A program made the translations under genes and the position numbers. From a virus, in the IMG/VR virus record IMGVR_UViG_3300031800_000001, positions 1 to 64,000 of that record: 64,000 nt of DNA. The stretch is one strand, 5' to 3'. The notes below the pieces were generated by a model. The model was not told the origin of the DNA and searched no databases. It saw nothing but the letters and a program-made list of their open reading frames with translations. Positions 4,711 to 31,256 of the stretch are shown piece after piece. Within the stretch, counting starts at the first letter, position 1. Each line of letters opens with the position of its first letter.

Positions 4711-4901
4711 AAAATATAACACTAACAGTTAATCACACAGGGCGAGAAATGATGGTGAATTGGGACAATGTAGATTTTGCCAAGGAAAGCAAAAGTGTTT
4801 ACGGTGATGATTATGTTGAGATTCACTTTGGAAAACAATCCATTGACGTAAAAGAAACACTAGAAGAAGTCGAGGCGAAACTAGCGAATTTGGGCCTTTA
4901 G
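4707..4901 (+). CDS. Small protein resembling FlbD-like phage proteins
   Basis: A 64-residue protein beginning with the beta-strand pattern ITLTVN and a later V.W.NVDF, reminiscent of small FlbD-like proteins common in phages. This is a weak resemblance. Its TAG stop falls inside the tRNA that begins at 4892, so mRNA and tRNA share 10 bases and tRNA processing would remove the stop codon. Confidence 0.6.
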   Translation: MKNITLTVNHTGREMMVNWDNVDFAKESKSVYGDDYVEIHFGKQSIDVKETLEEVEAKLANLGL

Positions 4902-4968
4902 CTCAACTGGTTAGAGCAGTACACTCATAATGTATTGGCTGGGGGTTCAAGTCCCTCAAGGCCCACCA
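4892..4968 (+). tRNA. tRNA with anticodon CAT (elongator Met, or Ile if lysidine-modified)
   Basis: A 77-base cloverleaf. The acceptor GGGCCTT pairs with AAGGCCC, the D stem is GCTC/GAGC, and the anticodon loop CTCATAA reads CAT on stem GTACA/TGTAT. The T loop is TTCAAGT, the discriminator is A and CCA is encoded. G1-C72 pairing and the stem sequence exclude an initiator tRNA. CAT can be elongator Met or, after C34 modification to lysidine, Ile(AUA); sequence alone does not settle this. Confidence 0.93.
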
Positions 4969-4995
4969 TTAAATTTTAATAAAATACGGCAAACG

Positions 4996-5820
4996 ATGAA
5001 CGATAGATGTGATTTTAGTAACCTTCCCCCGATGCTCGACAAAAGCGAAACGGAGCAGTTGGGCCAAACCCTTCTCAATGGAACAGACGAGCAGAAGGAT
5101 GAGGCAAAATGTCGGCTCATTGAATCAAACATTCGCCTTGTCATAAAAATGGCAAAAGACTACGCCAATCTTGGAGTAGAAGTCGATGATTTGGTAAATG
5201 AGGGGAATATGGGCCTCATGGTTGCTGCTGAAAAATTTGACCCGAATAGGGGTGCAAAATTCTCAACTTATGCTTCTTTTTGGATTAGACAAAAGATACT
5301 ACGAGCCTTAAACAACAAGAGCAGCCTAATTAGACTTCCCGTTTACCTAAAGCAGAGATACATGAACATTCGTAAGTTCATGGGGAAATATACGGCTGAA
5401 CACGATGATGCGCCAAGCAACGAACTGATAGCTAAAGAGTTCGGCATTACAGTAGCCAAGGTCGAAAAATTATTTGAAATAACTGCTCCAATTTTTAGAC
5501 TCGACTCGTCGGTGGGGGCCGATGGGGAGAACAGCAGGATGCTCCCTTTCATTGAAATTGTGTGTGATATGGAGTCTTTTAGCCCATCACTTCAATTAGA
5601 ACGGAAGGAACAAACTCAAATTTTATCAGAAATGCTTTCAAACCTTCCAGAAAGGGAAGAATATATTATTCGCCATCGTTTTGGCTTGCAGGGGTTGGAG
5701 AAAGAGACTCTTGAAAAAATAGGCGACCACTTTGGCGTAACCCGCGAGAGGATACGGCAAGTTGAGGACACGGCACTCCGCAAATTAGGGTTCATGTATC
5801 GTAGCCGAAAAAAGGATTGA
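4996..5820 (+). CDS. Sigma-70 family RNA polymerase sigma factor
   Basis: The 274-residue protein has sigma regions 2, 3 and 4 but no region 1.1. Region 2 is near residues 40-110 and includes the FDPNRGAKFSTYASFWIRQ block (core and -10 binding). Region 4 is near 215-265 and includes ETLEKIGDHFGVTRERIRQVE, a complete -35 helix-turn-helix. An open frame extends upstream into the tRNA, but the first sensible start is the ATG at 4996. It resembles primary or group 2/3 bacterial sigma factors more than compact phage ones. It could redirect host polymerase to phage promoters, perhaps the TAGAAT class; that link is inference. Confidence 0.9.
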   Translation: MNDRCDFSNLPPMLDKSETEQLGQTLLNGTDEQKDEAKCRLIESNIRLVIKMAKDYANLGVEVDDLVNEGNMGLMVAAEKFDPNRGAKFSTYASFWIRQKILRALNNKSSLIRLPVYLKQRYMNIRKFMGKYTAEHDDAPSNELIAKEFGITVAKVEKLFEITAPIFRLDSSVGADGENSRMLPFIEIVCDMESFSPSLQLERKEQTQILSEMLSNLPEREEYIIRHRFGLQGLEKETLEKIGDHFGVTRERIRQVEDTALRKLGFMYRSRKKD

Positions 5821-6239: not shown

Positions 6240-6475
6240 TGCAAACGAAATACCGTCCACCCAACCAAGCCGAGTCGCACCCGAAGTATTGTGCGCCCTC
6301 CCCGTATGGGGGAAAGCTAGAAAATCTGACCGATTATCCCCCCGAATCCGTATTTCGTCTTGAAAGAAAGCTAGACAGATACAATCACATTATGGAATTG
6401 ATGAGAACTTGCCTTGCGCTATTTACCGTGACGCTCCAGATTGTTATTCTATTGAAACTGTTTAATTTAATATAA
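6239..6475 (+). CDS. Small C-terminally anchored membrane protein
   Basis: A 78-residue protein starting on the A of the previous TAA. About 50 polar, Pro-rich residues precede one C-terminal hydrophobic segment (LALFTVTLQIVILLKLF). Function unknown. Confidence 0.6.
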   Translation: MQTKYRPPNQAESHPKYCAPSPYGGKLENLTDYPPESVFRLERKLDRYNHIMELMRTCLALFTVTLQIVILLKLFNLI

Positions 6476-6970: not shown

Positions 6971-6974
6971 TTTG

Positions 6975-7042
6975 TTTGCGGAATAGAGGCGTGAGAGAAC
7001 CGCGCACAGGACTATACTTCATCCTTTCATTAACACCGCGAA
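6975..7042 (+). ncRNA. Three-way-junction RNA element, copy A
   Basis: TTTGCGG at 6975-6981 pairs with CCGCGAA at 7036-7042. Just inside lie AATAGA and, at the far side, TTAACA. Between them are a GAGAG-containing hairpin and an AGGA/TCCT hairpin. The same layout recurs twice at 13398-13550. Copy A ends 21 bases before the GMP reductase start, so it may be a cis-regulatory RNA. No known riboswitch class was recognised. Confidence 0.6.
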
Positions 7043-7063
7043 CTATTTTTTAATTTTTATTAA

Positions 7064-8218
7064 GTGAGGATAGAGAACGACATAAAGCTAGACTACAAGG
7101 ATGTCCTTATGCGCCCAAAGCGTTCTACGCTAGAGTCCCGCAAGGATGTTGACTTGATGCGTGAGTTTATTTTTCCTCATGCTGGGGGGAAGGGTGCTGA
7201 CCCTAAAGCCTATGGATGGAAAGGTGTTCCCATCGTAGCTTCAAATATGGATACGGTTGGAACTTTTGAGATGGCTAAAAAACTTGCCGAATACCGTATG
7301 CTTACTTGCATCAGCAAGCACAATGATATAAAAAGATGGCTACACAAGCTGAATGGTTATGGAGTCTATAAAAACCAAGAGCAAAAAGACGGCACGGTTT
7401 GGGAGCATGACCCAAACTCAAAGTGTTCGCACAATAGAATTTATGAGCATATTTCTCCTTCTATTGGTATTAAGTATGACCCAGAAAAGGCCGATGATAT
7501 AGATTATCTCAATAACATTACATGGAACTTTTATCACACACGTTTCGTGTGTATTGATGCGGCAAATGGATACACAGCAAGATTCTGTGACTTCATAAAA
7601 AGAGTTAGAGAAGAACACCCAGCACTCATTATAATAGCTGGGAATGTTGTCACGGGAGAGATGACAGAACAGTTAATTCTAAATGGAGCAGATATTGTCA
7701 AGGTTGGTGTTGGAAGTGGTTCTGTTTGCACTACTCGCATTCAGACTGGTGTTGGTTATCCCCAATTTAGCGCGGTGGTCGAGTGTGCCGATGCCGCTCA
7801 TGGCGTTGGCGGGTATATTATGGCTGATGGCGGTTGTACCTGTGCTGGAGACGTTGCCAAGGCTTTTGGTGGAGGTGCTGATTTTGTCATGCTTGGCGGG
7901 ATGCTGGCTGGACATACGGAGTGCGAAGGACAGGAGGAAGAAATAGGAGGCATCAAATACAAAACCTTCTACGGTATGAGTTCCAAGGATGCTATGGAAA
8001 AACACAGCGGCGGCGTAGCCAAATATAGGAGCGCGGAGGGCAAAACGGTGAGGGTCAAGCACAGGGGGCTTGTTAAAAACACGTTAGAGAGCATCCTCGG
8101 CGGCTTACGGTCTGCCTGTACCTATATTGGAGCGAGAAGGCTAAAGGATATGCCCAAGTGCGCTACTTTTGTGAGAGTAACGCAGCAGTCGAATGAGATT
8201 TACGGAAAGAATACATGA
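7064..8218 (+). CDS. guaC: GMP reductase (IMPDH/GMPR family)
   Basis: The 384-residue TIM-barrel enzyme would reduce GMP to IMP and ammonia with NADPH. Diagnostic blocks are [16 protein letters not shown] at the N-terminus, ASNMDTVG, and GSGSVCTTR with catalytic Cys at about 222. [10 protein letters not shown] and a C-terminal Gly/Arg-rich flap end follow. No CBS pair is inserted, which favours GMP reductase over IMP dehydrogenase. The start is a GTG at 7064, because no in-frame ATG exists before the conserved block. The structured RNA at 6975 lies directly upstream. The next gene overlaps by ATGA. Confidence 0.88.
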
Positions 8219-13390: not shown

Positions 13391-13397
13391 TGAATTT

Positions 13398-13464
13398 TTC
13401 GCGGAATAGAATCGTAAGAGAGCTACGGTCAAGGCAAATGTCTGCCTGTATTGAACACCGCGAA
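13398..13464 (+). ncRNA. Three-way-junction RNA element, copy B
   Basis: TTCGCGG pairs exactly with CCGCGAA. AATAGA follows the first strand and TGAACA precedes the second. Inside are CGTA-AGAGAGC-TACG and AGGC-AAATGTCT-GCCU-type hairpins. Copy C follows 13 bases later, so the two form a tandem. Confidence 0.65.
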
Positions 13465-13477
13465 TTTACTTTGGCGT

Positions 13478-13550
13478 ATTTACGGAATAGAGCCAAGAGA
13501 GAGTCTTGGACAGCCTTTAGATGTGTTGTGGCGAGTTGAACACCGTGGAT
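13478..13550 (+). ncRNA. Three-way-junction RNA element, copy C
   Basis: ATTTACGG pairs with CCGTGGAT (with GU pairs), showing covariation against copies A and B. AATAGA and TGAACA are kept. Inner hairpins are CCAAGA-GAGAG-TCTTGG and GCC/GGC. A GTG that could start the next gene lies within the closing stem at 13545. Confidence 0.65.
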
Positions 13551-13841
13551 ACCCCTTCTTTTACATATATCTTTGCGGCTCTTTCTATTCTCTTTTCATT
13601 TATGTTGTGTTTATTTGGTATAGAGAACAATGAATTTAGAAAAAGCCCCTTTTACTATGCTTTTATTAAGGTTACAGGGGGAGAGAGTATAAAGAATAGA
13701 GTGTTAAAGTGTTTTGAAAATGAGTTGAAATGGAGTGCCTCATATTTATATTTATTAAAATTTAATCAATTTAGCTTCCCATTTACAATCTATACAACAT
13801 ATAACACAATACAAAGAGATATACACAATGCAAAAAATTAA
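13545..13841 (+). CDS. Possible membrane protein after the tandem RNA elements
   Basis: If started at the GTG inside element C, the frame gives 98 residues with one hydrophobic segment near residues 6-26, then a charged and aromatic soluble part. A later ATG at 13602 would remove most of the membrane segment. Base composition is AT-rich, unlike the flanking genes. No family recognised; the frame may not be expressed. Confidence 0.4.
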   Translation: MDTPSFTYIFAALSILFSFMLCLFGIENNEFRKSPFYYAFIKVTGGESIKNRVLKCFENELKWSASYLYLLKFNQFSFPFTIYTTYNTIQRDIHNAKN

Positions 13842-13974
13842 AATGATAGGAGAAATTACATGGACGATATTGGTTACATTATTATACTTATGCTTGGTTG
13901 CAGCTTTGGCTTTACTTTGTTTAATCTTTTCAAAGAATAACATTTATAGTAGAAAAAAAGTCCCAGCATTTTGA
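13828..13974 (+). CDS. Small membrane peptide (with overlapping alternative frame)
   Basis: The 48-codon frame encodes a basic start and a long hydrophobic segment, then a basic tail. A second, overlapping 26-codon frame at 13860-13940 has a better Shine-Dalgarno (AGGAG, 7-8 bases) and also encodes one membrane span. Either or both could be real holin-like or toxin-like peptides; I cannot choose. Confidence 0.35.
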   Translation: MQKIKMIGEITWTILVTLLYLCLVAALALLCLIFSKNNIYSRKKVPAF

Positions 13975-14259
13975 GCCATAAATAAGTGGCACGACGAGCA
14001 TAATTATATTAAAAGTCAAGAAAAAAGTCCCAATAATTTGAAATTAAAAATATATAAAAAAAGTCCCGATTTTTCAATGATGCAAATAAGCCACGCGACT
14101 CCGTTTTCCTATGATAAAAACCCATTTTTGAGTGATTTTTGTGCTTTTTTGTATAATAATAAAGATTTTATTCCTATTAGATGAATTTTCATTTATTAAA
14201 AATTAGAAAATGGCTTTTTTTTCGTTTTTATTGCTATAAAAATGTAATTATTATATGAT
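13975..14259 (+). repeat. AT-rich gene-free stretch with AAAAAAGTCCC repeats
   Basis: No gene is seen. AAAAAAGTCCC (A-run plus GTCCC) occurs three times, with GTCCC at 13960, 14037 and 14063. The third copy continues into CAATGATGCAAATA, which recurs near 16348 after a similar AGTCC. Base composition is far more AT-rich than the neighbours, suggesting an insertion scar or a binding region. Confidence 0.4.
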
Positions 14260-30828: not shown

Positions 30829-31256
30829 GGGGGCGTACTGGTTTCGATTTGAAGCTTTACGCCAGATTGCAAGTAGAGGATGACGGTTGGCCTCTTAAAA
30901 AAACTGTCAAAAACATATATGCCAATGATGACATTGACATGGAGATGGCCCTTTCTGTAGACGAGGCTGACGAGATTCTCGCCAAGTTCGGATACGTTGA
31001 GGAGGAAGCCCTCTTGCTGGCAGTTTAAACCTGCCCCGTCCTACTCTGGATGCTCGTTAAAGAGCTAGGGCGTCGACAGCGAGCAAAAAACTGGACAGAT
31101 GAAGGGAGCCAGTATAAATAATCTCTTCATAAGTTCGCACAGGTCGGTTAGTCAAGTGACCCACCAACGCGAGTAAGAAATAATACTTGACTAAGCTTGT
31201 AGTATATCTGTCTGACGGTTTTGAAGACGTGGGTTCGACTCCCACCGCCTCCACCA
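30829..31256 (+). ncRNA. ssrA: Phage tmRNA with a 35-codon tag
   Basis: A 428-nt tmRNA, which frees stalled ribosomes by trans-translation. The 5' GGGGGCG (30829-30835) pairs with CGCCTCC (31246-31252), followed by A and CCA. TACTGGTTTCGATT follows the 5' arm, and the T arm is GTGGG-TTCGACT-CCCAC. The tag begins at GCC 30921 with Ala-Asn-Asp, as in the E. coli tag, and runs 35 codons to TAA at 31026. The stop lies in a GGCAG/CTGCC hairpin, again as in E. coli. The tag ends LLLAV rather than LAA. Bacterial tags are usually about 8-15 residues, so this one is exceptionally long. Confidence 0.9.

Follow-up and report, generated by a model that had tools for sequence, protein, structure and literature searches.

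The window, by which we mean the whole 64,000-nt stretch of viral DNA analysed here, carries three copies of a small RNA belonging to what is almost certainly a genuine family of three-way-junction RNAs, judging from the covariation of its stems among related sequences. Copy A lies between a 163-aa ORF and a GTG-started GMP reductase gene, and copies B and C form a tandem pair, separated by 10 nt and located 6.4 kb from copy A (Table 1). In each, an outer stem P1 of ~8 bp is followed by the joint AATAGAG or AATAGAA, a 6-bp P2 hairpin, AC or TC, a variable P3 hairpin, ATTAACA or TTGAACA, and the return strand of P1. An earlier sequence-only reading had placed a 68-base RNA at 6975-7042 and two tandem relatives further along. 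That reading located the closing stem, the AATAGA joint and the hairpin correctly and the tandem copies are real, with the first element proving to be two bases longer at each end. The same reading described four elements as recurring in all three copies. This holds for the closing stem and the AATAGA joint, but the P2 loop is GAGAA in copy A and GAGAG in copies B and C, and the last joint is TTAACA in copy A and TTGAACA in the other two.

Table 1. Coordinates of the three RNA copies, the parts of copy A and the neighbouring gene in the window.
Feature	Position	Strand	Remarks
RNA copy A, whole element	6973-7044	+	R1 82.8 bits, E 6.8e-19; founder sequence of model R1; MFE fold agrees
P1 5' strand, copy A	6974-6981	+	Partner 7036-7043; P1 pairs vary on both sides family-wide
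Joint J1/2 AATAGAG, copy A	6982-6988	+	Near invariant in 98 non-redundant copies, in part imposed by the search patterns
P2 hairpin, copy A	6989-7005	+	6 bp, the last an A.C mismatch; loop GAGAA 6995-6999; P2 covariation
P3 hairpin, copy A	7008-7025	+	Variable; AGGA/TCCT here; weaker covariation, 81% of cells paired
Joint J3/1 CATTAACA, copy A	7028-7035	+	Family form ATTGAACA
P1 3' strand, copy A	7036-7043	+	Followed by T-rich tail 7044-7061; a 3' flank rich in pyrimidines is seen across the family
RNA copy B, first of tandem pair	13396-13466	+	P1 13397-13404 with 13458-13465; R1 72.8 bits, E 3.7e-16
RNA copy C, second of tandem pair	13477-13551	+	P1 13478-13485 with 13543-13550; R1 72.4 bits, E 4.6e-16
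GMP reductase gene (IMPDH/GMPR domain)	7064-8218	+	Pfam PF00478, E 5.5e-72; neighbour of copy A without functional tie

The folding energies of the window copies are mildly low (z -1.7 to -2.3) and are not telling by themselves, so the case for the RNA rests on comparison. Covariation had already been offered as the argument for a real RNA when only the three window copies were in hand, and it is strongly supported by larger alignments, which lie far above their shuffled counterparts. In a first alignment of six sequences, 92% of cells pair, compared with 76% after shuffling and 35-49% with the 3' partners shifted out of register. Alignment A6, from which we built the covariance model R2 (n = 101 sequences), likewise has 92% of cells paired, with 658 two-sided changes as against 197 in shuffles, a covariation score of 0.907 as against 0.22, and a two-sided change at every one of the 17 pairs. 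The P1 and P2 pairs also come out on top in mutual information calculated with no structure given, barring trivial column overlap. Even the innermost pairs of P1 are exchanged (GG/CC, GA/TC, CC/GG, GC/GC), and at the foot of P2 the G.A sometimes gives way to A.G or A.U. R2 scores the window copies at 60-64 bits (E 1.6e-13 to 1.4e-14).

A first scan of IMG/VR with exact patterns matched four contigs, three of which are true homologues (L004, L001 and L002); the fourth match, L003, was a chance one inside a coding gene. L004 is a near twin of the window with identical gene order, and L002 is a homologue on a contig of 61% GC. R1, a covariance model made from six sequences, picked up copies that the patterns had missed, namely second copies in L001 and L002, and wider patterns were combined with it for an extended search of IMG/VR contigs. 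This covariance-model search, of a kind that the sequence-only reading had proposed, enlarged the family by hundreds of copies whose stems show compensatory changes; strong E-values were obtained at ~240 viral-contig sites, representing 169 distinct sequences, or 92-98 after clustering, with elements of ~55-90 nt on contigs of 33% to 61% GC. One GenBank phage record has a match (AP013544.1, an Ayaqvirus from a Mediterranean fosmid library); a near-DNA search with the window itself against GenBank phages returned no match.

Against these varying stems stands a near-invariant core of AAUAGAG, GAGAR, AC and UUGAACA, although the invariance of the joints is partly imposed by search patterns that required them. 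Six copies matched by the model only (L001, L002, L128, L275, L305 and L315) are more variable, and still keep most of the joints and loop. GAGAR forms a GNRA-like pentaloop capping the covarying 6-bp P2, while P3 is variable and its loop, L3, changes in both length and sequence. In three second tandem copies with a diverged core (L305:6610-6683, L339:11133-11206 and L315:4423-4496), AGUAGAG and UGAUCA replace AAUAGAG and UGAACA, a paired change that is possible evidence of contact between the two joints. The first six bases 3' of P1 are 70% pyrimidine, compared with 46% in an intergenic control, and TTTT follows P1 in 24% of copies versus 7% in the control; because of this excess, we consider a short tail to be part of the element. 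Controls with shuffled partners, or with the letters of the tails shuffled, lent no support to a pseudoknot joining the GAGAR loop to the pyrimidine tail, although an invariant loop leaves covariation unable to speak against one. U.G pairs are common in P1 and P2 (UG makes up 19% at P2 pair 1), and the only position at which A.C is frequent is the pair that closes the P2 loop; this identifies the + strand as the RNA and rules out an antisense reading.

By the comparisons made here, the RNA would constitute a categorically new class, since it fits none of the families tested and has a core of its own; the statement applies to the class and not to its mechanism. With cmscan, the window copies and 12 relatives all fell below the gathering thresholds of the 4227 models of Rfam 15, which include purine riboswitches, the glnA RNA, hammerhead and other ribozymes, and pRNA. 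A permissive scan with two relatives gave nothing, or chance-level matches with E of 1 or worse. A literature search by core sequence, limited to open-access text so that a subscription journal or a preprint may contain an account, found no description.

One close architectural parallel is with the purine riboswitches (guanine, adenine and 2'-dG), which are likewise three-way junctions of ~70 nt with stems P1-P3. The present RNA differs in its joints, in having no Rfam match and in the absence of any purine gene theme; and because L3 is not conserved, it would not make their loop-loop kiss. Membership of the purine riboswitches is not supported on these grounds, the variable L3 and differing joints supplying neither a conserved L2-L3 kiss nor the ligand-binding core. 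The glnA glutamine riboswitch is a small three-way-junction RNA from marine samples, and in that respect similar, but the order of conserved segments and the gene context are different and again there is no Rfam match. The packaging pRNA of Phi29-type phages is also a phage RNA built around a three-way junction and present at about one per genome, whereas the RNA described here has no Rfam match, occurs in many kinds of phage and is strongly conserved in sequence across them. Orphan structured RNA motifs of unassigned function are a known product of comparative genomics (PMC2864571, PMC8040213). Our family resembles them in having been discovered by covariation and in its unassigned function, and differs in a core that was found neither in Rfam 15 nor in the papers searched.

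Within the collections searched, the RNA is in essence confined to phages, and the family is one encoded by tailed phages. When 84,980 bacterial species genomes were scanned with a strict pattern, there were 15 matches, two of which are backed by the model (L207 and L204) and the remainder not. Both lie in MAGs, assigned to Fimbriimonas and Acidobacteriaceae, and in the Fimbriimonas MAG an antisense tandem pair is flanked by terminase and portal genes and so belongs to a phage region. Model searches of 251 genomes of the phylum of the Fimbriimonas MAG and 247 of that of the Acidobacteriaceae MAG found nothing beyond these two. A host chromosomal gene was rejected as an origin, given one genome in 251 and one in 247, the first of them in a phage region.

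The placement of copy A beside a purine enzyme had suggested control by a purine or related ligand, and this suggestion did not survive comparison. Among 19 loci with related GMP reductases (73-92% identity), the RNA lies upstream of the gene only in the window and its near twin (L011/L004); the other 17 lack it there, and what lies upstream of the gene varies from phage to phage. According to R2, seven whole records of GMP reductase relatives contain no copy, and two others (G006 and G010) have copies at other places. Elsewhere in the family the neighbouring genes are non-purine, and some copies have no downstream gene on the same strand. With most guaC relatives free of the RNA and such neighbours, control of guaC or of purine metabolism was rejected.

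We considered how the copies are arranged in phage genomes. In 42 of 49 records there are one to three copies, usually one, and the number is no different in records longer than 100 kb. Neighbouring genes encode a T7-like RNA polymerase (L107, L098, L150, L308, L320 and AP013544.1), terminase, DNA polymerase, PAPS reductase, DNA methyltransferase, an SbcC-like protein, an HNH nuclease and the clamp loader, and in two cases (L169 and L220) the RNA stands directly before tRNA genes. Its strand is that of the gene upstream 82 times out of 92 and that of the gene downstream 73 times out of 93. Given this shared sense, and with no enrichment of sigma-70-like promoters ahead of the RNA, it would normally be part of a longer mRNA. 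At L207 and L165 it is antisense to both flanking genes, and at L230, L293, L307 and L334 it fills the gap between convergent genes, with no downstream gene on its own strand.

Two pairs of contigs illustrate the turnover of genes at the borders of the element, where flanking genes come or go while the RNA stays 97-98% identical. The RNAs of L294 and L276 are 98% identical, yet L276 has gained ~360 nt exactly at the 3' edge and a different stretch at the 5' edge. In L161 and L147, also 98% identical in the RNA, ~400 nt of extra sequence lies just before the RNA in L161 and the sequence that follows is unrelated. The element is therefore independent of particular neighbours, and more generally the comparison shows that its position and survival do not depend on which genes adjoin it. 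No protein family was common to more than 7 of 30 RNA-bearing records (blastp, E 1e-4), which makes a phage-encoded partner protein shared by all of them unlikely.

We suggest, with slightly less than even confidence, that this is an autonomous phage RNA, carried within phage transcripts, which acts in trans on a conserved component of the host. A trans-acting RNA directed at a widespread host component best fits the combination of few copies, free siting, sense transcription, independence of neighbours, lack of a common phage protein and a rigid core. Such an RNA would work in its own right: it would be made as part of phage transcripts, with processing or termination probably close to the U-rich tail, and its junction and GAGAR loop, held at a fixed distance by the 6 bp of P2, would bind a component of nearly every bacterial host, to the gain of the phage. 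RNA polymerase, the ribosome, an RNase or another RNA-binding protein would be candidate targets, and tandem copies might raise the dose. Counting against action in trans are the usual sense placement within a longer mRNA and the nearby start codons, both of which would be expected of a cis element.

The last point bears on a cis-acting leader, either riboswitch or protein-binding element, that would control translation or transcription of the next gene. Start codons cluster 3-15 nt downstream in roughly one in four of the non-redundant copies (~22 of 95), eight of them at exactly +13, the RNA has the sense orientation of its operon, and in one podovirus group that includes AP013544.1 it is always just upstream of the RNA polymerase gene; the compact junction fold and the tandem copies are also features of some riboswitches. 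We nevertheless regard such a leader as rather unlikely, since the downstream genes belong to no common pathway and are exchanged while the RNA stays, the GMP reductase gene mostly does without it, and some copies end transcription units, precede a terminator (L231, L266, L309 and L120) or face a convergent gene. A related idea, that the structure replaces a Shine-Dalgarno sequence, was discarded: the close start codons mostly lack one, yet it is found at only 22% of contig ORFs (13% by chance), and contigs that use it have it after the RNA too.

Less likely still is a nascent-RNA element that modifies RNA polymerase in cis or prevents termination, on the pattern of HK022 put or lambda nut. 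Those are also short phage elements, present at one to three per genome on the sense strand of operons and bearing a GNRA-like hairpin loop, and the four copies just named directly precede an intrinsic terminator. The pentaloop on its short stem resembles boxB and UUGAACA loosely resembles the end of boxA, likenesses that we take as a lead only. The order and fold are, however, unlike those of nut and put, for the present RNA has a three-way junction with an invariant AAUAGAG/UUGAACA core and is sited anywhere, including at transcript ends and opposite flanking genes, in unrelated phages. Terminators after the RNA are weakly enriched (9 of 96, compared with 4.8% in the control), and downstream of several copies there is hardly anything to read through, or nothing at all.

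An element that stabilizes mRNA or defines transcript ends, by blocking exonucleases or ending transcription at the U-rich tail, seems improbable. The pyrimidine- and T-rich tail and the tandem copies would suit it, as would the closer strand tie to the upstream gene (82:10) than to the downstream one (73:20), a difference that is not significant (p 0.07). Against this, one to three copies even in records over 100 kb would be odd for a general stabilizer, TTTT follows P1 in under a quarter of copies, and the L2-tail pseudoknot is unsupported. Cutting of phage transcripts between genes or beside tRNAs by the RNA acting as a self-cleaving or self-processing ribozyme, although in keeping with invariant junction nucleotides, freely varying stems, and intercistronic and tRNA-adjacent sites, is very improbable given joints unlike any known ribozyme core and no match to an Rfam ribozyme family.

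Returning to a phage RNA that acts in trans, a more far-reaching and more tentative possibility is that it represents a new class of trans-acting phage RNA with a target common to most bacteria, a stand-alone unit passed among unrelated phages and serving host takeover or counter-defence. If so, it might be spread more widely among the sampled phages than any detectable protein. To our knowledge, few phage RNAs are common to unrelated phages. A tiny core kept nearly letter for letter amid changing stems, genes and lineages implies a strongly selected function, and identifying its partner could expose a shared point of host control or defence exploited by very different phages. The consensus, together with hundreds of natural variants, lends itself directly to bench tests.

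Several other features of the window deserve mention. The listed 106-aa ORF at 13521-13841 begins within copy C; a start at 13602, giving a 79-aa protein, is likelier. A tRNA-Met gene at 4892-4968 overlaps the start of the listed ORF for a sigma-70-like factor (4930-5820), so that the true start of this protein is probably further in. A phage-borne tmRNA gene with the tag EADEILAKFGYVEEEALLLAV occupies 30829-31256, and the window also has tRNAs for Met, Trp and Thr. AT-rich stretches of the form TATTTCAATTTATTAAAAAATAAAAAAC and variants recur at 6468, 8978, 11442, 13743, 14035 and 14184, some just before genes, and are a possible promoter or start-site element. Finally, the segment at 13850-14250, near the clamp-loader gene, is AT-rich and without clear genes, contains AAAAAAGTCCCA repeats at 13954 and 14021, and is possibly a replication or regulatory region.
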